Assembly (NCBI GenBank): GCA_002368605.1
Contig: DFEB01000014.1
Location: 1 to 56,445 of the forward strand
Direction of reading: 5' to 3'
Origin: Treponema sp. UBA3813
GTDB lineage: Bacteria > Spirochaetota > Spirochaetia > Treponematales > Treponemataceae
Length of the DNA stretch: 56,445 nucleotides
Of this stretch, positions 18,360-27,965 are shown in pieces. The notes beneath the pieces are model-generated. The model had not been told where the DNA came from, made no database searches, and worked only from the letters and a program-made list of their open reading frames with translations. Made by a program: the position numbers and the translations under genes. Numbering within the stretch: the stretch's first letter is position 1; each line of letters opens with the position of its first letter.

Positions 18360-19433
18360 ATGAAACTCTCTGACTTTTACTTTGACTTACCAGAAGAACT
18401 CATAGCGCAAAAGCCCAGCGGAATCCGCGGTCAGGACAGGCTCATGCTTTTAAATCGGGAATCTGGGGAAGTTCAGCATCTTTCCATGGATGATTTGCCT
18501 GATTTGATTTCGCCTGACACCCTTATGGTCTTCAATAACTCAAAAGTCCGCCGCAGCCGCTGTTACGGAATCAAAATTTCTGAAATTGAAGGACAGGGGG
18601 GGCGTGAGCGCGTCTCAGGAAGAGAACGCGAGTTCATGTTCCTCAATCAGATGACGCCTGAAGGAAATCTCTGGCACACCATGGTTAAAGGGGCAAAAAA
18701 AGTAAAAGCCGGGAACAAGTACCGGTTTACCGACGGCTCAATCGGAAGAATCATCGCCCATGAAAACGACGAGGGAAGCGAATTCCGCACCATTGAGTTT
18801 GATTCCCGCCTTGATGATGACTGGTTTGGCCGCAACGGTCACATTCCTCTTCCCCCTTACATCCGCCGTGAAGACGATGACACGGACTCAGAGCGCTACC
18901 AGACAGTCTACGCCAAGGAAACGGGAAGCTCTGCCTGCCCGACGGCGGGCCTTCACTTCACCGAAGAAATGTTCCGCCGCCTTGACGCAAAGGGCATTGA
19001 GCGGGTATTTGTGACCCTTCATGTGGGCTTGGGAACTTTTTTGCCTGTCCGCACTGAGAATATCGAAGAGCACAAAATGCACGAGGAAGTCTACACCATT
19101 CCCTTTGATGTGGCCGAAAAAATCAATGCGGCAAAAAAAGCAGGCCGCCCGATTCTTGCCGTGGGAACAACTTCCGTCCGCACCTTGGAATCTGCCAGCG
19201 ATGAAAATGGTTTCGTAAAGGGTGGCTCAAGCGCGACCCATATCTTCATGTATCCGGGTTACAAATTCAAGTGCGTCAACCAGATGTTCACGAATTTCCA
19301 CACGCCTGAAAGCACCCTGATTATGCTGGTCTCAGCATTTGCCGGCAGGGAACATATTCTTAATGCTTACCAGAAAGCCGTGGAGCAAAAATATCACTTT
19401 TTCTCTTATGGCGACTGTATGCTGATTAAGTAA
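18360..19433 (+). CDS. queA: QueA, S-adenosylmethionine:tRNA ribosyltransferase-isomerase
   Basis: The 357-aa enzyme makes epoxyqueuosine from preQ1-tRNA using the ribosyl part of SAM. It begins MKLSDFYFDLPEELIAQKP and shows MVFNNSKVRRSR, CPTAGLHFTEEMF, VTLHVGLGTFLPVRTENIEE, HKMHEEVYTI, AVGTTSVRTLES and TNFHTPESTLIMLVSAF, all QueA signatures. An extra loop rich in Gly/Arg/Glu (GQGGRERVSGRERE) follows residue 75. It starts 7 bases after the chemoreceptor stop, with no evident ribosome-binding site. Its end overlaps the convergent FAD-subunit gene by 8 bases. Confidence 0.97.
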   Translation: MKLSDFYFDLPEELIAQKPSGIRGQDRLMLLNRESGEVQHLSMDDLPDLISPDTLMVFNNSKVRRSRCYGIKISEIEGQGGRERVSGREREFMFLNQMTPEGNLWHTMVKGAKKVKAGNKYRFTDGSIGRIIAHENDEGSEFRTIEFDSRLDDDWFGRNGHIPLPPYIRREDDDTDSERYQTVYAKETGSSACPTAGLHFTEEMFRRLDAKGIERVFVTLHVGLGTFLPVRTENIEEHKMHEEVYTIPFDVAEKINAAKKAGRPILAVGTTSVRTLESASDENGFVKGGSSATHIFMYPGYKFKCVNQMFTNFHTPESTLIMLVSAFAGREHILNAYQKAVEQKYHFFSYGDCMLIK

Positions 19434-20235
19434 GTTGCTCCAGGGAGTATTTTATCAGATTCCAGAATTGCCTCTTTAAAATGGGGGCAATTTTTTCGTC
19501 TTTTGTCGTGTTATTGAATGATTCTTCGGCTTCAAGCAAGAAATTTGAAATTGCTGTCTGTGAAAGCGGCAAATGGGCTCCAATCAGTTTGTTTTCAAGG
19601 TTCGTATCCCTAAATTTAAAGCTTCCTGCCATTGAAATCCGTAAGTCTGAAATCTGATTTTTTTGTGAATTCGCCAGAAATACAAAGCTCGCTGAAAGCT
19701 CATTCAAAGAATTTGAGGGGCCGAGCCGTCTGAAAAGCGCAACTTCCCATTCTTCAGTGGGAAGCCGAATTTTTGATAAAAGCATGCCCTCTGGAATCTT
19801 TTCAAAGCGGCTTATATTCTGAAAAATTGCTTCGTTTCCGTTTTGAAATTCAAGCCTGGCATCCAAAGCTAAAAGGGGGGCATAGAGTGTGTTGAAAAAT
19901 TCTTTCCCGCAGATGTTGCCGCCCAATGTTGCAAGGGAGCGCACATTTGGATTAGCGACTGTCGTGATTGCCTTGTACAAACATGGAGGAAGATTTGCCT
20001 CACCCAATTCTTCAATTTCGGCCAAAGTAACGGCAGTGCCAAAGTCGATATATCGCTCATGTTTGTCGATAATTTTTAGTTCAGGAATATCCCTGACAGA
20101 AAGTGTTTTTTCGGGTAGAGATTTCCCCACAAAAGAGGTACAGCCGCCTGTAATCGTCAAATCTGAAATCGTTTTGAGTTGATAGAATACATCGGCGAGA
20201 TTTTTCGCATAAAAAAAAGTCTTAGAGGTTGCCAT
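19426..20235 (-). CDS. FAD-binding subunit, xanthine dehydrogenase/CO dehydrogenase family
   Basis: The 269-aa protein matches the medium (CoxM/XdhB) subunit. An N-terminal FAD-binding loop (ITGGCTSFVGKSL) stands where AGGTDL-type loops occur. The central ATLGGNICGKEF, followed by APLLALDARLEF, is the second FAD motif. The C-terminal CO-dehydrogenase-flavoprotein-like domain follows (FRRLGPSNSLNELSASFVFL). It would carry electrons between FeS clusters and an acceptor. Its start overlaps the FeS-subunit stop by 14 bases, showing translational coupling. The FAD motifs look intact, unlike the molybdenum site in the partner. Confidence 0.85.
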   Translation of the reverse strand: MATSKTFFYAKNLADVFYQLKTISDLTITGGCTSFVGKSLPEKTLSVRDIPELKIIDKHERYIDFGTAVTLAEIEELGEANLPPCLYKAITTVANPNVRSLATLGGNICGKEFFNTLYAPLLALDARLEFQNGNEAIFQNISRFEKIPEGMLLSKIRLPTEEWEVALFRRLGPSNSLNELSASFVFLANSQKNQISDLRISMAGSFKFRDTNLENKLIGAHLPLSQTAISNFLLEAEESFNNTTKDEKIAPILKRQFWNLIKYSLEQLT

Positions 20236-20710
20236 TTCGCCTTCCTTCCCGCTCGTGCTTGTTTGCTGTTGCGTACACGATTCCGTTCATAAATGTCTTT
20301 TTGTCTGTGCAGTTGCATTCTATGCAGTCAGCTACATGTTCCAAATCTTCTTGTGTTGGTCTGTATACTTTTTTGAGAAGGGCATAAGTTGAAAAAATCC
20401 GTGCGCTGTTGCAGAAGCCGCACATGTTCATTCCTGCCTGCTTAAATCCTGCTACGATGTCATCAGCTTCTTTTGTAAGTATAAAAAATTCCAAAGTGTC
20501 GATTGAGGCATTCCTCACGATTCCTACGGGGATTATGCAACTGGGAACAGGTCTGTCATCTAAGAGAACGGTACAAGAGCCGCATTTTCCTTTGCCGCAG
20601 CCTTCCTTGATTGAGATATAGCCTTCCCGTCGGAGCACAACGCTCAGCATTTCATCTGGCTGTGCGTCGAGAATCTTTTTTTCACTGTTCAAAAGCACTG
20701 GAATTTTCAT
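20222..20710 (-). CDS. [2Fe-2S] subunit, xanthine dehydrogenase/CO dehydrogenase family
   Basis: The 162-aa small subunit has an N-terminal plant-ferredoxin-like cluster site (EGCGKGKCGSCTVLLDD, then VPSC). The C-terminal helical cluster domain has MCGFCNSARIFSTYALL and ADCIECNCTD in place of the usual NLCRCTG. All eight expected cysteines are present, so both clusters can form. The gene overlaps the large-subunit stop by 4 bases (ATGA arrangement) and overlaps the FAD subunit by 14. Confidence 0.88.
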   Translation of the reverse strand: MKIPVLLNSEKKILDAQPDEMLSVVLRREGYISIKEGCGKGKCGSCTVLLDDRPVPSCIIPVGIVRNASIDTLEFFILTKEADDIVAGFKQAGMNMCGFCNSARIFSTYALLKKVYRPTQEDLEHVADCIECNCTDKKTFMNGIVYATANKHEREGRRNGNL

Positions 20711-22923
20711 TGAGCGTCCCCTGTAACATGTCTTCGAGAGTTTTCGTATCTTTCCCTGATTTCATAAAGTGAATCAGTTTTTAGAGGCATTTCGTTTACG
20801 CTGATAGCAATTGCCTGTGAGAGCGCAGAAGCATAAGCGGCTGGAAGAATAGAGTAGATGAGTCCGCCGATTTGCTTTGGTTCTTCTTCTGATTGGGTGA
20901 ATTGTACGCTGATTGAAGGGCAGCGAAGGGATTCGTCTTTTACAAGGGAAGAAAGACAGCGAGAAATTGCCCTGTGTACGATGTTTTCGGCAGCTTTCGG
21001 GTGTAGAATTTTTCCGCCGTCGATAATTACGCAGATTTTTCGGATTTTTTCACGGAAAGTGCAGGCGTCAAGTTCTACTTCAACCGTACAGGTTCCGAAT
21101 GCTGTATTGTAAAAGGGAGTGCCTGAAAATTCTGCCTGATTCCATGCTTTTTTTCGAGAAAGGGGCAGGGATTTTTTTATAGAAAACGGCGTGCCGTCAA
21201 TTTTTTTTCGTTTTAGGGAATCCACGCATTTTTGCAAGAGGATGCTTTTTATACTTACATCTCCAACAAGTGACTCTGGCAGTGAGCTTGTCGTAATTTT
21301 CTTTTTTGACAATTCTTCTGCCGCTTCTCCCGTAAAGAGAATGTTCCTTTTTTCAATTTCAATCGAGTCTTGAATGATTTTTGTCCAAATTTCCTTGATT
21401 GAAAGACTTGGCGGAAGGGCATGAACGAGAATTTTTTTGTCTTCTGTTACGGAAAGATGCATCGATATGTTTGATTTTTCAAACTCTGTGCCGAAATAGC
21501 CGCTTCCCTCAAAAGCGCAGGCAAGGGCAATTCCTCTGAAGGGCGGAGCGTAAGGCAAATTATCGCTGCCTTCATTACGGCCATATTCTGCAAGCCGTGA
21601 AACCGTGTATTTTCGTTTGAAATCACTTCTAATAACTACCGCATTTATTGCATCGCTGGAACGACCGAATGAGAATGTAAATGGCTCCGTGTGCTTTTGC
21701 ATTCCTCCGGCTTTGTTCATCTGCCGTAAGTCCACTGGAGAAAATCCTGTAATCTCAGCGATTTTTTGAATTTGGTTTTCGACGGCAAAAAATGCCTGAG
21801 AGTCCAGCATGGAAATGATTTGCGACGAGGGCGGATTATGGCTCTTGTAGGCTTTTGCGCTGATTTTTACATTTTTACAGTTGTAAATTCCACAAGCGGC
21901 GAGTGAAAGTCTGTCGAGAATGTAGGATGCAAAGGGATTGTATGCGCCTGAGTCGTAGCAAATTGAAACTTCCATTGCCGTGAGTAAACCGTTTTTATCG
22001 AGAGCTGTTTTGTGGGAGATAGAAATGTCGCTTGCCCGTTCGATATTTTCTTCTTGTTCTGTTCGGGAAAGTGAAAGTCTGACGGCTTTTCCTGTTTTTA
22101 CTGCGGCAAAGGCGGCCAATGAAGCGAGAATTCCGTTTTGATATAGACAAGCCGTTGTCTCTCCGAAACTTTTTGTTTTTGTAAGGAAAATCTTGTCTTT
22201 TGAAAAAGCCGTAACTTGTTCCACCGTGCTGACAGTCTGCTCAACCCACTGGCTTGGTGTTGAAATGTAAAGATTTCCTCCCTTTATTTGAGCGACGGCT
22301 CCTTCTGTCTCTTTATTGGCATAATAGGGAATCTGGCTCTTCCAAGTTCCCTCAACGATAAATGCAGCTTTTTCCTCGTCTGCGAAAATTTCTTCTGTAT
22401 TTCCGATTGAGACCTTTCGTTTTGCGATTATTTCCTTTGGTTTCGAAAAATCTTCAAGGGATTTTTTGAGGGATGTTAGGCTTTCTTCAATGGGCGAGCC
22501 GTCTTTGAGTGAGACAGAAAGTGAATTATATGCATTGCTGAATTTAGATTCGTTTGCCTTGATTTCTGTTTTATCGAGCTGAACTTTAATAGAAGATTTT
22601 AATTCTTCGAGAACTTCCTTCTTCTCACCGACAAGAAGCGCAAGAGGTTCTCCTTTGTAGGCAATTGTCCCAGTGCAAAGAATAGGAATGTCCTTTCCAA
22701 GAATATTTACCTGAGTTTTTCCAGGAATGTCTTTGTAAGTGAAAAGTTCATAGCCTTCTGGAATTTTTGTTTTGGGCGCAAAATCGATTGAGGTGACCTT
22801 CCCGTAAGAAAAAGGACTCCTCACGATGACCGCATGAATCATATCGTTTGCAGGTAAATCCGAATAAAAATCATCAGAGAAGAGAAATTTTTTTTTGTCG
22901 GAAACTTTCCGCCTAGCGCACAT
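20707..22923 (-). CDS. Divergent molybdopterin-type large subunit of a xanthine-dehydrogenase-like complex
   Basis: The 738-aa protein keeps the fold pattern of CoxL/XdhA: N-terminal a/b-hammerhead (AVIVRSPFSYGKVTSIDF), then LAALAAF-like helices with KAVRLSLSRTEQEEN, and YDSGAYNPF. The sites that hold the molybdenum cofactor look lost. GGFGGK reads TKSFGETT, RGFGxPQ reads YKSHNPPSSQ, and the C-terminal GxGE segment with the catalytic Glu reads EPKQIGGLIYSILPAA. It may therefore not be a working hydroxylase. The ATG overlaps the DegT aminotransferase stop by 11 bases. From memory, T. pallidum has a related quinoline-oxidoreductase-annotated gene beside cap5D/spsC. Confidence 0.75.
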   Translation of the reverse strand: MCARRKVSDKKKFLFSDDFYSDLPANDMIHAVIVRSPFSYGKVTSIDFAPKTKIPEGYELFTYKDIPGKTQVNILGKDIPILCTGTIAYKGEPLALLVGEKKEVLEELKSSIKVQLDKTEIKANESKFSNAYNSLSVSLKDGSPIEESLTSLKKSLEDFSKPKEIIAKRKVSIGNTEEIFADEEKAAFIVEGTWKSQIPYYANKETEGAVAQIKGGNLYISTPSQWVEQTVSTVEQVTAFSKDKIFLTKTKSFGETTACLYQNGILASLAAFAAVKTGKAVRLSLSRTEQEENIERASDISISHKTALDKNGLLTAMEVSICYDSGAYNPFASYILDRLSLAACGIYNCKNVKISAKAYKSHNPPSSQIISMLDSQAFFAVENQIQKIAEITGFSPVDLRQMNKAGGMQKHTEPFTFSFGRSSDAINAVVIRSDFKRKYTVSRLAEYGRNEGSDNLPYAPPFRGIALACAFEGSGYFGTEFEKSNISMHLSVTEDKKILVHALPPSLSIKEIWTKIIQDSIEIEKRNILFTGEAAEELSKKKITTSSLPESLVGDVSIKSILLQKCVDSLKRKKIDGTPFSIKKSLPLSRKKAWNQAEFSGTPFYNTAFGTCTVEVELDACTFREKIRKICVIIDGGKILHPKAAENIVHRAISRCLSSLVKDESLRCPSISVQFTQSEEEPKQIGGLIYSILPAAYASALSQAIAISVNEMPLKTDSLYEIRERYENSRRHVTGDAQ

Positions 22924-24103
22924 GGTGTTTTTCTCCCGCCTCTTTCACAGCCTTGATGACGATTTGAGCCTGCTCCTCGCTCATGTCCGGGAAGAGGGGA
23001 AGGGTAATCGTGTTTTTTGAGTGCTCGTCCGCGTTGGGGAAATTTTCTGCCCTAAAGTCAGGGTATTTTTCCTGCCAGTAAGTGAAATTGAAAATGGCGA
23101 TAAAGTGCATGGAAATTCCGATTCCCTGCTCCTGGAGTTCCTTGGCGAAGGCGTTGCGGTCGCAGTCCAGTTTTGATGAGTCTAAGTGGAGCAGGTAAAG
23201 ATGCCATGCGTTTCCCTCACCGTCCGGCGGTAGAATCACGAAATCAAGGTCTTTGAAAGCCTGATTGTAAATTTTTACGATTTTTTTGCGTTTTTCGTCA
23301 AAAGAGACGGCTTTTTTAAGCTGAACCCTGCCAATGGCTGAAAGTATGTCAGGCAGATTTGACTTAAAGCCCGGCGCGATGATGTCATATTCCCAGCTGG
23401 CCTTGGGGTTCGTGTAGCGGTCCCATGCGTCCCTGTTCATTCCGTGGAGGCGCATCTGGCTCATTCTTTTTGCAAGGGCATCGTCATCGGTGGTAATCAT
23501 GCCGCCTTCGCCCGTGGTCATGGTCTTCGTTGCGTAAAAACTGAATACACCTATGTCGCCCAAAGTTCCCGCATAGCCGCGGCTGGTCTTACTGGGGAAG
23601 GAATGAGCCGCATCCTCAATCACATAAATTTTGTTTTGGGGAGTAGAATATTTTTTTGCCAGGGCGCAGATTCTTTCCATGTCGCAGAGATTTCCAGCGA
23701 TGTGAACCGGCACGATGGCGCAAATCTTATGCTCACTGTCTTTTTTTAGGATTTCTTCGATTTTAACAGGATCGATTGAGTAAGAATCCTTTTCGATGTC
23801 GGCAAAAAAAACATCTCCTCCAAGGTGAACTGCGCTTGTCGCCGTAGAGACGAAAGTGTAGGGCGTGGTGATTACGGCCTTTCCTGCCTTTACTCCGCAG
23901 GCTTCCATGGCGAGAATCATTCCGCTGGTGTTTGAATTTACCGCCAGCGCGTGCTTTGAGCCCACAAAAGAAGCGAACTCACATTCAAAATCATGGGTAA
24001 CTTTGCCCGTCGTGAGCCAGCCTGAGTCTATCACATCGCAGACGGCCTTTTTTTCTTCATCATCAAAAGAGGGCTTAAAAAAAGGAACTTTAATCTCAGA
24101 CAT
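22913..24103 (-). CDS. DegT/DnrJ/EryC1-family PLP aminotransferase acting on a nucleotide sugar
   Basis: The 396-aa enzyme begins with the family's VPFFKPSFDDEEKKAVCDVI and WLTTGKVTHDFECEFA. The PLP site shows VIEDAAHSFPSKTSRGYAG and FSFYATKTMTTGEGGMI, where the Lys in TKT is the expected PLP lysine. The substrate-proximal GFKSNLPDILSAIGRVQLKK is also present. Such enzymes aminate 4-keto-6-deoxy sugars, and the gene directly upstream encodes a 4,6-dehydratase-type enzyme. The pair could make a UDP-4-amino-4,6-dideoxy-GlcNAc-type sugar for glycans. It starts 8 bases after the dehydratase gene. Confidence 0.92.
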   Translation of the reverse strand: MSEIKVPFFKPSFDDEEKKAVCDVIDSGWLTTGKVTHDFECEFASFVGSKHALAVNSNTSGMILAMEACGVKAGKAVITTPYTFVSTATSAVHLGGDVFFADIEKDSYSIDPVKIEEILKKDSEHKICAIVPVHIAGNLCDMERICALAKKYSTPQNKIYVIEDAAHSFPSKTSRGYAGTLGDIGVFSFYATKTMTTGEGGMITTDDDALAKRMSQMRLHGMNRDAWDRYTNPKASWEYDIIAPGFKSNLPDILSAIGRVQLKKAVSFDEKRKKIVKIYNQAFKDLDFVILPPDGEGNAWHLYLLHLDSSKLDCDRNAFAKELQEQGIGISMHFIAIFNFTYWQEKYPDFRAENFPNADEHSKNTITLPLFPDMSEEQAQIVIKAVKEAGEKHHVR

Positions 24104-24111
24104 AAAATCTC

Positions 24112-25614
24112 CTACAAATTCATTGACTCGTCTTTTTTCGTTGTTCTGTAGAATTCATCGAGAGAGGGCACTGCTTTTCTCAAAATAGAAATAAGCTCTT
24201 CCTTGTTGCGGAATTTTTCTTGGTCGCCGGTAAAGCGACAGATTGGATCAAGTTTTGAAAGAAGGGCGTCCAGTTTTTCATCCCCGAATTCAATGTTTTT
24301 GAGGACGAGGAGTTTTTCGTACTCGGTTTTCTGGGGATTTTCTTCTTTGAGCCAGAGAGGCTCGTAGACCCGCTCGCCCTCCCGCGCGCCGATGATTTTA
24401 ATTTCGATGTCTTTGCCCGGCTCAAGTCCGGAAAATTTTATAATCTGCTCTGCCAGATCTATGATTTTAAGAGGCTCTCCCATATCCAGGAGATAAGAGC
24501 GGCCGTTTTCGCCTACGCCACCGGTCTCCAAAACAAGGGAACAGGCTTCCGGAATCGTCATGAAGAATCGTTCCATGTTTTTGTCGGTGACGGTTACGGG
24601 CCCGCCGGTTTTAATCTGCTGCTGGAAGAGGGGAAGAATTGAGCCCCGCGAGCCAAGCACATTTCCGAAACGCACGAACATGAAATTCTGATTTTTTGCA
24701 GCCTTTTTCGCATACTGAAGCACCAGCTTTTCCGAAAGCATTTTGCTGGCTCCGTAGACGCTCACCGGGCTTACGGCCTTGTCTGTGGAAATGAGCACGA
24801 ATCTCTGAACGCCAGACTCAATGGCCGCATCCAGGAGATTTTTTGTTCCGAAGACATTGTTTTCGATAACCGCCACGGGATTTTCTTCCATCATGGGAAC
24901 ATGCTTGTAGGCCGCGCAGTGGAAAATCACATCCGCCCGCGTTTTTTTGATGATATAGCGCACATATTCCCTGTCTTTCATGTCGCCGATAATGGGAACC
25001 ACAGTCGCTTTTTCTCCCACGCCTTCCTGCTGCAAGACATGAAGTTCCCGGTAAATCTGCACGATGGAATTCTCGCCGTGACCGAAAAGATACAATCGCT
25101 CAGCCCCGCCGCTTAAAAGCTGCCTTGAAAGTTCCGAGCCGATTGAGCCGCCCGCTCCCGTAATCAAAACCCGCTTTCCCCTAAGGTAATTGAGGCTTTC
25201 ATGAAGGGGGATAATTACCGGAGTTCGGCCAAGAATATCCAGAGGGTCGATTTCGCGGGTTTGAACCAAATGAGCCTTTCCGTCTACAATCTGGCTTACG
25301 CTGGGCAAAATGCGGATATGGGCAAAGCCGCCCTTTTTGAGAATTTCGTAAATTTCACGGATTTTTTCGGTGGGGGCAGAGGGAATTGCGATAATTGCTT
25401 CGTCCAGCGGTCCGCAGCGAAGGATTTTCGCCACATCTTGAATGGGCCCCAGGACAGGAATCCCTTCGATTTGCTTTCCGATGATTTCTTTGTCGTCGTC
25501 TAAAAAAGCCGCGACCGAACCGAAAATCTTTTTGCGGAGCAAGTCTTCTGCAATCATCTGACCTGCAAAGCCCGCTCCTATTATATAAATTTGTGAATCA
25601 CTCTTCTGTAACAT
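24112..25614 (-). CDS. CapD/FlaA1-type nucleotide-sugar 4,6-dehydratase
   Basis: The 500-aa protein has an N-terminal CoA-binding-like Rossmann domain (YIIGAGFAGQMIAEDLL, FLDDDKEIIGKQIEGIPVLG) and then the catalytic SDR domain: VLITGAGGSIGSELSRQLL, FHCAAYKHVPMMEENP, VLISTDKAVSPVSVYGASK (Tyr-x3-Lys) and FVRFGNVLGSRGSILPLFQ. Family members are UDP-GlcNAc 4,6-dehydratases (PglF, WbpM, Cap5D). The four N-terminal membrane helices of the large form are absent, so it is probably cytosolic or peripheral. The start overlaps the upstream diguanylate-cyclase stop by 17 bases. Confidence 0.9.
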   Translation of the reverse strand: MLQKSDSQIYIIGAGFAGQMIAEDLLRKKIFGSVAAFLDDDKEIIGKQIEGIPVLGPIQDVAKILRCGPLDEAIIAIPSAPTEKIREIYEILKKGGFAHIRILPSVSQIVDGKAHLVQTREIDPLDILGRTPVIIPLHESLNYLRGKRVLITGAGGSIGSELSRQLLSGGAERLYLFGHGENSIVQIYRELHVLQQEGVGEKATVVPIIGDMKDREYVRYIIKKTRADVIFHCAAYKHVPMMEENPVAVIENNVFGTKNLLDAAIESGVQRFVLISTDKAVSPVSVYGASKMLSEKLVLQYAKKAAKNQNFMFVRFGNVLGSRGSILPLFQQQIKTGGPVTVTDKNMERFFMTIPEACSLVLETGGVGENGRSYLLDMGEPLKIIDLAEQIIKFSGLEPGKDIEIKIIGAREGERVYEPLWLKEENPQKTEYEKLLVLKNIEFGDEKLDALLSKLDPICRFTGDQEKFRNKEELISILRKAVPSLDEFYRTTKKDESMNL

Positions 25615-27004
25615 AATTGTCTTCGTAAACTTCGCAGCCTCGTTTGCCTTTTTCTTTTACGATGTAAAGAGCTTTGTCCGCTCGCTTGAACAAATCTTCG
25701 GTGAATCCATCGTCAGAAAAAGCGACTCCGACACTGACTGAAACAGGTTTGATATTGTCTTTTATATTTACAAGTTTTTCGTTTACGCTCAGAATCTTCT
25801 GTTTGATTATGCTTGTGGCAGATTTTGAGCATTGGGGGAGAATCGCCGCAAACTCATCGCCACCGATTCGAGCCACATAGTCATCGGTTCGGAAAGTTTC
25901 GGTGAGAATTCTGGCAAGTTCTTTAAGGGCCGTGTCTCCGCCTGCATGACCGTAATTGTCGTTTATGTACTTGAAGTTGTCCATATCAATGAGAAGAAGA
26001 GCTATAGCCTGTTTTTTTTCGGATGAATTTTTGCAAACTTGGTCGAAAGCCCGTCTGTTCAAAATACCTGTGAGAGCATCATACTCTGCTTTTTTGAGAA
26101 GAGAGCGTTCGTTTTGTGCTTTAAGCTCGTAGATTTCGTTGTAGCTTTCGGCAAGATGCTTGCATTCTAAGGAACCAATTACATTGAGCCGTTCGTCCTT
26201 CTCGATTGAAGTTTTGAATTTTTCCAGCGGAAGAATAATGAGATATGCGAATGCGATGAATAAAAGGATATTTACAATCAACAAAGCAAGGAAAAGCAGA
26301 CGCAAGCGGTTGATGTTTGATCCAAGCTCATTAGAATTTACATTGAGTTCGTCTTTAATCTGTTGTTCAATAGCGGCGATGGTAAGACGGCAATTTTCAT
26401 TGATGCGGGTTTTGTAAATGAGATAGCCTTCTCCAAAAAGATTGTTGACCGTTGATTCCTGCAATTTTTCTTTTGGAAGGTTTTCGTCAAGAGCCCGAAT
26501 TGGAATAGCTCGAATTTGTTCTGGAATTTCGTCAGTTCCGATTACTTTGTAGGCAAGACGGATAGCATATAACTCCATTGTGATGAGGCTTTGTCCTTGC
26601 TCCATGGCGATTTTAAGGCGTTGTAAGGCTAAATCTTTTTCAGAACAGACTTTTTCGAGTTCTTCGAGAGCTTTTTGCTGTCTTTTTGTTATATTTATTT
26701 CTTCAAGATAGGCTTCGACATAGTCTGTTTTGTGCGTAACGACAAAAAGTCGAGCCTGATCTGTAAGATAATTCGCGCTTTCTTTTATGAGTTCAGAACT
26801 TTGTTCACAAGTAATGAATTTGTCAATTGCATTTTCAACAGCATGAAATCGATTGTTTACAGTGTTTGAAATAACAAGAATAAAACAAAAAACAATTGCC
26901 GTTATTACTATAAAGAAAATATTGAGGAACTGAATGTTTATGCCTGTGACCGAGCGTTTCGGTTCTTTTTCTTGGTTAGTCTGCAAGAGTGATGATTTCT
27001 CCAT
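25598..27004 (-). CDS. Membrane-bound diguanylate cyclase with periplasmic sensor region
   Basis: Start set at ATG 27004, 7 bases after GCGGGA; an ATG at 27016 is also in frame. The 468-aa protein has TM1 near residues 20-42, a helical periplasmic region of about 190 residues, TM2 (LLFLALLIVNILLFIAFAYL), and a C-terminal GGDEF domain with intact ARIGGDEF and a product-inhibition RxxD (RTDD) five residues before it. LLIDMDNFKYINDNYGHAGG and ADKALYIVKEKGKRG complete the domain. It makes cyclic-di-GMP. The gene overlaps the upstream binding-protein gene and the downstream dehydratase gene, so it is translationally tied to both. Confidence 0.92.
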   Translation of the reverse strand: MEKSSLLQTNQEKEPKRSVTGINIQFLNIFFIVITAIVFCFILVISNTVNNRFHAVENAIDKFITCEQSSELIKESANYLTDQARLFVVTHKTDYVEAYLEEINITKRQQKALEELEKVCSEKDLALQRLKIAMEQGQSLITMELYAIRLAYKVIGTDEIPEQIRAIPIRALDENLPKEKLQESTVNNLFGEGYLIYKTRINENCRLTIAAIEQQIKDELNVNSNELGSNINRLRLLFLALLIVNILLFIAFAYLIILPLEKFKTSIEKDERLNVIGSLECKHLAESYNEIYELKAQNERSLLKKAEYDALTGILNRRAFDQVCKNSSEKKQAIALLLIDMDNFKYINDNYGHAGGDTALKELARILTETFRTDDYVARIGGDEFAAILPQCSKSATSIIKQKILSVNEKLVNIKDNIKPVSVSVGVAFSDDGFTEDLFKRADKALYIVKEKGKRGCEVYEDNYVTEE

Positions 27005-27965
27005 ATAATCCCGCATCTGATGTGACTGATTGGTTTATGATGTCGGCACATGCTGTTTGCCATGCCGAAATGTCTTTTACTTCGATGAATTCGGTGCCCT
27101 CGGACTGAAGAATGAGCTTGTTTTGGCTTTCGATTTCCTGAAGCATTTTGAAACATTCACCCTGAGCGTATCGGCTTGCCTCAATAAATATTTGCTTTTG
27201 TTTTTCTGAAAGTGAATCCCATGCTTCCGCTGTTATAACGACTTCAGTTATTCCCAATTGATGACCGTCAAGAATCATGTAGGGCGCAATTTTATTGAAA
27301 TGATTTGAGAGATAATTTGCAATTGGCTGCTCTGCGATTTCTACAGAACCTGTTTGCAGTGCAGTGTAGAGATTTGAAAAATTTACAGTAACGGAAATGC
27401 CTTTTAAGCCGTCGATTATCCCCTGCATTACGGAGTTGCCCGCAGTGCGCATTTTCTTGCCATTGAAATCAGCGACAGAGGTAAGTTTTTTTGTAGAGAA
27501 AAAGTGGCGGAAGCCTTCCTCAGCGAAAAAAAGTCCTTTTATACCGAGTTTGTTTTCGTATGGTTCATTTAATATTTTTTCGGCGAGAGGTGATTTTGCA
27601 AACTTCTGGAAATGCTCATGTCCTGAAAAGGTAAAAGGAACATCGAGAAGCATGTGCTTGTTACAGTTTTTTGTAGATAAGGTGGCTGGCGATATTCTTG
27701 CGATGTCGATTTTGCTACCAGCTTGAAGCATAACATTCGTTACTTCAGTATTGTCACCTAATACTCCGTCTGTGTAGAGCTGAATGGTAATGCTTCCTTC
27801 TGATAATTCTTGAACTTTTTGAACAAAAGCCTCATCCATACGCACTGAAAGAGAGCCTGCGGGATTTACCTCTGACATGACAAACGAAAAAGATTTTTCT
27901 TTTTGGCATGAGCCGAGCAAAACTCCCATAATAAGTGTGTAAGCAATGAGAAAAGTTCGTTTCAT
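26976..27965 (-). CDS. TRAP-type (DctP-like) solute-binding lipoprotein
   Basis: The start is set at ATG 27965 (MKRTFLIAYTLIMGVLLGSC), not the upstream in-frame ATG, because a perfect promoter leaves only 7 bases before this ATG. The 329-aa product has a lipoprotein signal (LLGSCQ) and the DctP fold: FVMSEVNPAGSLSVRMDEAF, FTFSGHEHFQKF, FNGKKMRTAGNSVMQGII (with the conserved ligand-binding Arg), LYTALQTGSVEIAEQP and AWDSLSEKQKQIFIEA. It would bind an organic acid or similar anion. No DctQ/DctM permease gene lies nearby; instead it overlaps a diguanylate cyclase gene by 29 bases. Confidence 0.88.
   Translation of the reverse strand: MKRTFLIAYTLIMGVLLGSCQKEKSFSFVMSEVNPAGSLSVRMDEAFVQKVQELSEGSITIQLYTDGVLGDNTEVTNVMLQAGSKIDIARISPATLSTKNCNKHMLLDVPFTFSGHEHFQKFAKSPLAEKILNEPYENKLGIKGLFFAEEGFRHFFSTKKLTSVADFNGKKMRTAGNSVMQGIIDGLKGISVTVNFSNLYTALQTGSVEIAEQPIANYLSNHFNKIAPYMILDGHQLGITEVVITAEAWDSLSEKQKQIFIEASRYAQGECFKMLQEIESQNKLILQSEGTEFIEVKDISAWQTACADIINQSVTSDAGLYGEIITLAD

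Follow-up and report, generated by a model that had tools for sequence, protein, structure and literature searches.

Three genes in a five-gene run of Treponema sp. UBA3813 encode the subunits of a complex that resembles xanthine dehydrogenase (XDH) and, judged by its residues, has dispensed with molybdenum. The run lies on the minus strand of the 56,445-nucleotide contig DFEB01000014.1, which in its full length is called the window here, and it begins with two genes of amino-sugar type, a dehydratase and an aminotransferase. Alignment indicates that the large subunit (LSU) is an XDH-family protein whose molybdopterin site has gone, and relatives without the binding residues for the molybdenum cofactor (Moco), called Moco-less in the following, were collected at 134 loci. 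The complex probably has a new job. The five genes are:

24112..25614, minus strand: UDP-HexNAc 4,6-dehydratase of the PglF/FlaA1/CapD type, 500 amino acids (aa), with a CoA_binding_3 part and Polysacc_synt_2 (Pfam, 377 bits)
22913..24103, minus strand: pyridoxal phosphate (PLP) aminotransferase of the DegT/ArnB/PseC type, 396 aa (Pfam DegT, 356 bits)
20707..22923, minus strand: LSU of the XDH family without a molybdopterin site, 738 aa
20222..20710, minus strand: iron-sulfur (FeS) subunit with two [2Fe-2S] motifs, 162 aa (Pfam Fer2 and Fer2_2), aligned to the aldehyde oxidoreductase 1dgj
19426..20235, minus strand: flavin adenine dinucleotide (FAD) subunit, 269 aa (Pfam FAD_binding_5)

A preliminary description of this DNA had given five genes with a gap of 8 bases between dehydratase and aminotransferase and overlaps of 11 (aminotransferase/LSU), 4 (LSU/FeS) and 14 bases (FeS/FAD), and the open reading frame (ORF) calls reproduced all of these exactly. 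The interval that it assigned to the run, 20707..25614, was too short: the FAD gene lies entirely outside it and the FeS gene almost entirely, and the run reaches 19426. The LSU matched MoCoBD_1 (120 bits), MoCoBD_2 (37 bits) and Ald_Xan_dh_C (45 bits) above the Pfam cut-offs, and it is the single MoCoBD_1 match of its own genome, which is 88.5% complete.

The 134 Moco-less loci, which represent 10 families, stem from 116 genomes of the spirochete family to which the window's genome belongs (hereafter the family), 16 genomes outside it and two contigs of rumen metagenome-assembled genomes (L161, L163). Their LSUs were aligned with 26 canonical rows. E. coli XdhA served as the reference among these; the others were canonical treponeme XDHs, mostly from genomes in which the Moco-less complex is present as well, and canonical proteins of other spirochetes. 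Row c_L090, which was in a wrong frame, had been dropped before these 26 were counted; the fuller L231 took the place of L079, and L162 was omitted as covering the same stretch as L041. The positions concerned in the window LSU are:

22150..22176, minus strand: lost GGxFGGK motif, residues 250-258
21796..21816, minus strand: lost RGxGxPQ motif, residues 370-376, reading ISMLDSQ with Ile in the Arg column
21400..21408, minus strand: lost GQG motif, residues 506-508
20863..20874, minus strand: lost GxGE motif, residues 684-687, with Gly687 in the column of the catalytic Glu
22246..22248, minus strand: Trp226, a new fixed residue of the Moco-less clade
21226..21228, minus strand: Cys566

GGxFG was present in 0 of the 134 Moco-less and in 26 of the 26 canonical LSUs, as was the Arg of RGxGxPQ (0/134 versus 26/26), although the loci had been sorted by motif into 134 Moco-less and 7 canonical ones and the zero counts are thus not independent of this sorting. 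Both the gene neighbourhood and the tree, which was built from 692 columns including the motif columns, agree with it. The Gln of GQG was retained in 4/134 Moco-less as compared to 25/26 canonical rows. Glu occupies the catalytic column in 40/134 Moco-less versus 26/26 canonical LSUs; since at least 20 changes were counted in this column on the tree, selection does not seem to maintain the catalytic Glu. The loss of three LSU motifs noted in the preliminary description was thus borne out at all three, but its reading of the second one as SHNPPSSQ is out of register, the true columns being those listed above. It had also named pterin-binding and Glu residues conserved at shifted positions as an observation that would speak against a molybdenum-free complex. 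None was found conserved in this way, and a Moco site kept at shifted positions was ruled out by the alignment with canonical relatives. New constraints were seen in the Moco-less LSUs: Trp226 is present in 131/134 (the commonest canonical residues are C, I and L), Cys occurs at position 566 or 567 in 133/134, and the x of RGxGxPQ is Asp or Glu in 115/134. The protein as a whole diverges fast, with 22-41% identity to the window LSU in 35 of the 37 other alignment rows.

Next to the LSU, the FeS and FAD subunits bear the following features:

20537..20599, minus strand: Cys 38, 43, 46 and 58 of the N-terminal [2Fe-2S] cluster
20411..20425, minus strand: Met96-C97-G-F-C100, with Met in place of Gln96 and the cluster Cys retained
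20309..20317, minus strand: C132-N-C134, the remaining ligands of the second, former molybdenum-side cluster
19915..19923, minus strand: GGN of the FAD site, residues 105-107

The Gln that precedes CGFC, which touches the pterin in known structures, was found in 0/134 Moco-less versus 8/8 canonical FeS subunits. In the window all eight cluster Cys, as judged by motif, and the FAD motifs are present, in agreement with the preliminary description. The same description had called the complex a redox complex, and this holds for the motifs of the window itself but only in part across the loci: all four Cys of the N-terminal cluster, the FAD-proximal one in known structures, are present in 123/134 loci, the set is incomplete in 11/134, and in one genome (G263, locus L146) the Cys sets of both clusters are lost, with the FAD residues kept and the gene open. 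Of the 11 incomplete loci, 3 are short of a single Cys, and in 8 no more than two are left. Counted as fewest changes, so that some steps could be regains, incompleteness requires 7 changes on a 40-row tree and 8 on a 134-row tree, and the state with at most two Cys requires 5 and 6, respectively. The 1,139,633-base genome G020 retains 0/4 N-terminal cluster Cys in an otherwise open run of dehydratase, aminotransferase, LSU, FeS and FAD genes. The preliminary description had named the same neighbourhood for T. pallidum; the run was indeed present in G020, whose size fits that species. The second cluster has at least four Cys in 133/134 loci, and its variable ligand pair reads CxC in 74, xCC (adjacent CC) in 55 and CCC in 5 of 134. 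The shift from CxC to adjacent CC (55 loci, for example L205) accounts for 2 changes on the tree, and in 53 of these 55 the LSU positions 566-567 are also CC. In the FAD subunit, Gly106 is found in 134/134 and Asn107 in 125/134 loci, and 106/134 are perfect at eight FAD positions. CO_deh_flav_C was not found in the FAD subunit of the window (E up to 0.001), G263 (E up to 0.01) or G020 (E up to 0.1), and it is present in the canonical locus L152 and in E. coli XdhB.

An LSU homologue was detected in 142 of the 145 family genomes, covering all 20 genera, and in 106/106 of those with a completeness of 90% or more and a contamination of 5% or less. All 116 family genomes that were read, out of the 142 with a match, proved Moco-less. 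Profile searches covered the spirochete phylum and gave matches in 104/247 phylum genomes, 73 of which lie outside the family; 23 of these 73 were read, 16 being Moco-less and 7 canonical. In family f6, at least 16 genomes among those listed had no LSU profile match. A 66-row tree (short search) placed the 40 sampled Moco-less rows, from 10 families, in one clade with a support of 100 in the Shimodaira-Hasegawa-like approximate likelihood ratio test, beside canonical spirochete proteins; the long-branch rows L147, L149, L150 and L151 were placed less surely. Inside the clade the rows group largely by family. This pattern supports a single, early loss of the molybdenum site in the ancestor of ten sampled families of one spirochete class, which, to judge from the sequences, would have been followed by mainly vertical inheritance.

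Genes for Moco synthesis are rare in the family: MoaC was matched in 18/145 genomes (12/106 high-quality ones) and MoeA_N in 7/145 (5/106). Among the genomes checked for them, MoaA was found in 1 of 12 and MoaE in 0 of 9, and the window's own genome, at its completeness of 88.5%, gave no match to MoaC, MoeA_N or MoaA. Together with the absence of GGxFG and Arg, this is in line with the molybdenum-free state proposed in the preliminary description. All 14 of the 18 MoaC-positive family genomes that were read are Moco-less as well, and Moco-less members occur in MoaC-positive genomes outside the family (G204, G298, G305, G334, G359); several MoaC-positive genomes with the Moco-less complex carry separate canonical XDH genes. 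Because MoaC-positive genomes have Moco-less members, the loss of the site did not simply follow from loss of the Moco pathway, and missing Moco genes were ruled out as its only cause. Canonical XDH motifs without a MoaC or MoaE match were seen in G092, canonical XDH genes likewise in G043 (L081, L102); in G015, where MoaC and MoaE also gave no match, a second XDH-like gene shows part of the motif set. The XDH genes of genomes without these matches include:

2618-4855 of L252: XDH gene with canonical motifs
6034-8316 of L253: XDH gene with partial motifs

They may be orphan molybdoenzymes, reflect a recent loss of the pathway or depend on an outside supply of cofactor. Canonical XDH genes in such genomes mean that absent Moco genes alone do not prove absent Moco. 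As this makes gene absence a weak argument, the molybdenum-free claim was based on the residues.

The complex is tightly linked to amino-sugar genes. Aminotransferase, LSU, FeS and FAD genes are consecutive on one strand with gaps below 300 bases in 121/134 loci, and the 13 that failed this test include contig edges and artefacts of ORF starts. The order in 121 loci and the homologues in 142/145 family genomes bear out the conserved neighbourhood that had been proposed. Dehydratase and aminotransferase are neighbours in 106/134 loci and stand apart in 2, and in 26 either gene is missing or low-scoring; the intergenic distances are mostly overlaps of a few bases. In the 7 canonical loci, neither gene was found in the stretch fetched for each. 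Both enzymes keep their catalytic residues:

24742..24756, minus strand: catalytic YxxxK of the dehydratase, Y287 and K291, reading YGASK
23525..23527, minus strand: PLP-binding Lys193 of the aminotransferase

Tyr and Lys of YxxxK were kept in 109/109 aligned dehydratase rows and the PLP-binding Lys in 125/125 aligned aminotransferase rows. The low-scoring rows L068 and L143 were excluded from the aminotransferase count and L143 from the dehydratase count; some FeS and dehydratase rows have wrong ORF starts, and the dehydratase row L047 is incomplete. The best solved relatives are WlaL, which we take to be PglF, for the dehydratase (5bjy, 247 bits) and ArnB for the aminotransferase (1mdo, 256 bits). 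The best NCBIfam match of the aminotransferase is PseC, with 334.5 bits under a cut-off of 423.5, and the dehydratase reached 189 bits against PseB under a cut-off of 407.75. A tie to nonulosonate (NeuB) synthesis was considered and rejected, as NeuB occurs in 224/247 phylum genomes and is too common to discriminate.

The complex proteins are under purifying selection. The ratio of nonsynonymous to synonymous substitution rates (dN/dS) was 0.04-0.19 in ten pairs, with two further values of zero and with dS near saturation in the wider pairs. For L215 and L216, a pair that lacks the N-terminal cluster, dN/dS was 0.04-0.10 for the three subunits.

Since ligands of the first cluster were lost repeatedly under purifying selection, an electron relay cannot be the job common to all members. 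The shared job would, as far as the residues tell, need no molybdenum and, in several lineages, no electron relay from FAD to the LSU. We ranked first, tentatively and at somewhat less than an even chance, a molybdenum-free scaffold that acts for the amino-sugar pathway. The three genes would give a heterotrimer built like XDH that gave up molybdenum once in its ancestor. They stand in one close-set run together with the genes of the PglF-like dehydratase and the PLP aminotransferase, both of which have intact catalytic residues. The putative former Moco cavity beside the second [2Fe-2S] cluster could bind a 4-amino-4,6-dideoxy-sugar nucleotide or a glycan intermediate supplied by these two neighbours, and the complex would be a dedicated binding and assembly partner of their pathway. 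FAD and the remaining cluster would then have a structural or sensing role or take part in local chemistry, and would not conduct electrons to molybdenum. Several observations weigh against such a scaffold. The well-kept FAD motifs, perfect in 106/134 loci, would be expected of a working flavin enzyme more than of a scaffold and nothing else; all four N-terminal cluster Cys stand in 123/134 loci, and the 3 of the 11 others that lack one might still hold a cluster. The action on a nucleotide sugar or glycan suggested in the preliminary description is favoured by the linkage to amino-sugar genes, this neighbourhood being its sole basis. No aminotransferase was found in L057, L058, L147, L151, L154, L213 and L249 (the sequence ahead of the LSU is short in L213 and L058, and in L147 the dehydratase lies directly before it), and L151, L154 and L249 carry the complex with neither aminotransferase nor dehydratase in the fetched stretch.

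Ranked next is a molybdenum-free flavin/iron-sulfur enzyme, a possible reading and the one proposed in the preliminary description. In it, NAD(P)H or another donor would reduce FAD, and the electrons would travel via both [2Fe-2S] clusters to a substrate bound in what was once the Moco cavity. This substrate could possibly be a keto- or amino-sugar nucleotide, with members lacking the N-terminal cluster as lineage-specific exceptions. All eight FeS ligands and the FAD motif in the window speak for it, as do the four N-terminal Cys in 123/134 and the second-cluster Cys set in 133/134 loci. Against it stand the repeated losses of N-terminal ligands in open genes (two or fewer Cys in 8/134, 5-6 changes), the single loss of both clusters, the low dN/dS that persists in the pair without this cluster, and the missing CO_deh_flav_C match in the FAD subunits of the window and G020. 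A further, unlikely reading is that the former molybdenum cavity is a new active site, in which the substrate comes into direct contact with the second [2Fe-2S] cluster. After the departure of Moco, this cluster would be open to the cavity and could be a Lewis-acid or sensing centre acting on an amino-sugar nucleotide, for which the FAD-side cluster would not be needed. The fourth ligand of the second cluster is not fixed, and the ligand-shifted group has two neighbouring LSU Cys (53/55); if the reading is true, the XDH scaffold would have been put to a novel catalytic use.

The other readings are less probable still. That the three proteins are a functionless remnant, persisting only inside a useful amino-sugar operon, is improbable: fast divergence of the LSU (22-41% identity in 35/37 rows) and eroding cofactor ligands would suit it, but dN/dS values of 0.04-0.19, retention of the run, with its genes open, in a genome of 1.14 Mb and the presence of the complex in L151, L154 and L249 without the two sugar genes in the fetched stretch do not. 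FAD and [2Fe-2S] proteins encoded beside a DegT-family enzyme also recall AscD (E3), the partner of AscC (E1), and the complex could by analogy donate electrons to a deoxygenating DegT enzyme. E1-type enzymes carry His at the position of the PLP Lys. The Lys in 125/125 aminotransferase rows rules out E1/E3-type deoxygenation and the N-terminal cluster losses break the electron chain, so that we regard a partnership of this kind as very unlikely. The least credible reading is a molybdoenzyme that binds molybdopterin unusually, through shifted residues. Homology to the family, Glu in the catalytic column of 40/134 LSUs and MoaC in some member genomes speak for it, against the absence of Arg, GGxFG and the FeS Gln in 134/134, at least 20 changes in the Glu column, family genomes of which 127/145 have no MoaC and 138/145 no MoeA_N match, and MoaA in 1/12 and MoaE in 0/9 of the genomes checked for them.

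If the molybdenum-free scaffold is true, each of the 106 high-quality genomes sampled from one spirochete family retains a homologue of an enzyme that textbooks describe as molybdenum-dependent, and in 116/116 family genomes read the molybdenum site of this homologue is gone. Family-based annotation would probably name such proteins molybdenum oxidoreductases and mislead metabolic models, those of medically important treponemes included. The loci would form a natural series in which molybdenum was lost, then one iron-sulfur cluster, then once both, with the proteins still selected, and one could ask what such a scaffold does without metals. The dependence of a spirochete amino-sugar or glycan pathway on the complex would become testable.

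Around the run, a GGDEF gene (25598-27016) lies upstream of the dehydratase gene and overlaps it by 17 bases, which makes the gene run at the window longer than five. The segment 25598-29617 (minus strand) holds this gene and two full-length DctP-type solute-binding genes, one called by Pfam and the other by clustering, with a shorter ORF between them; the same GGDEF neighbour was seen only in L042 among 63 clustered loci. RuvA-, RuvB- and DnaE-like genes (by eye) and QueA (Pfam) nearby look like plain synteny and were not counted in the system. Two secreted-looking genes recur near the operon (for example L041 17168-19006, minus strand), c7 in 27/63 and c10 or c11 in 18/63 loci; Pfam gave no match for examples of c10 and c11, and c7 looks SPOR-like by eye. 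In G305 (L143 4006-6505, minus strand), weak aminotransferase and dehydratase matches lie near the complex on the opposite strand, outside its operon. A NusG-like gene (for example L055 4761-5297) stands directly upstream of the dehydratase gene in 26/134 loci and of the LSU gene in L151; it is present but apart in 1 locus and absent in 37, and the upstream sequence is too short in 69.

This NusG-like gene may encode an operon-specific antiterminator. Known parallels are the operon-specific NusG paralogues RfaH, UpxY and LoaP. Specialised NusGs whose genes lie in the very operons under their control, capsular polysaccharide operons included, have been described (PMC7593976). Here the gene adjoins the operon in 27/134 loci, and no match to it was obtained in the window's own genome. 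A literature search found no paper on the complex in treponemes; most subscription journals lie outside that search, and an earlier notice is possible.

Among known systems, the molybdenum hydroxylase family (nicotinate dehydrogenase, E. coli XdhABC, D. gigas aldehyde oxidoreductase) has the same three subunits, domain families and FeS/FAD motifs, with profile similarity to members in the PDB across most of the LSU. Unlike that family, the complex has no GGxFG or Arg, has nearly always lost GQG, does not hold the Glu and has lost the FeS Gln; the window shows no CO_deh_flav_C match, the gene order is large-FeS-FAD behind sugar genes, and 127/145 family genomes are without a MoaC match. Dehydratase and aminotransferase resemble the PglF/PglE, PseB/PseC and ArnB enzymes in their kept catalytic residues, WlaL and ArnB being nearest in the PDB, but both fall under the NCBIfam cut-offs for equivalogs, and to our knowledge no such three-subunit complex belongs to those pathways. 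The AscC/AscD pair likewise joins a DegT-family protein with FAD and [2Fe-2S] proteins, whereas the aminotransferase here has the PLP Lys and the FAD and FeS proteins are of other families. NuoG of complex I is a molybdoenzyme-family subunit that lost molybdenum and still stands in a working complex, and the LSU is like it in having been retained after such a loss. NuoG, however, is of the DMSO-reductase superfamily and sits in an electron relay, whereas in the complex described here the relay was lost in several lineages.

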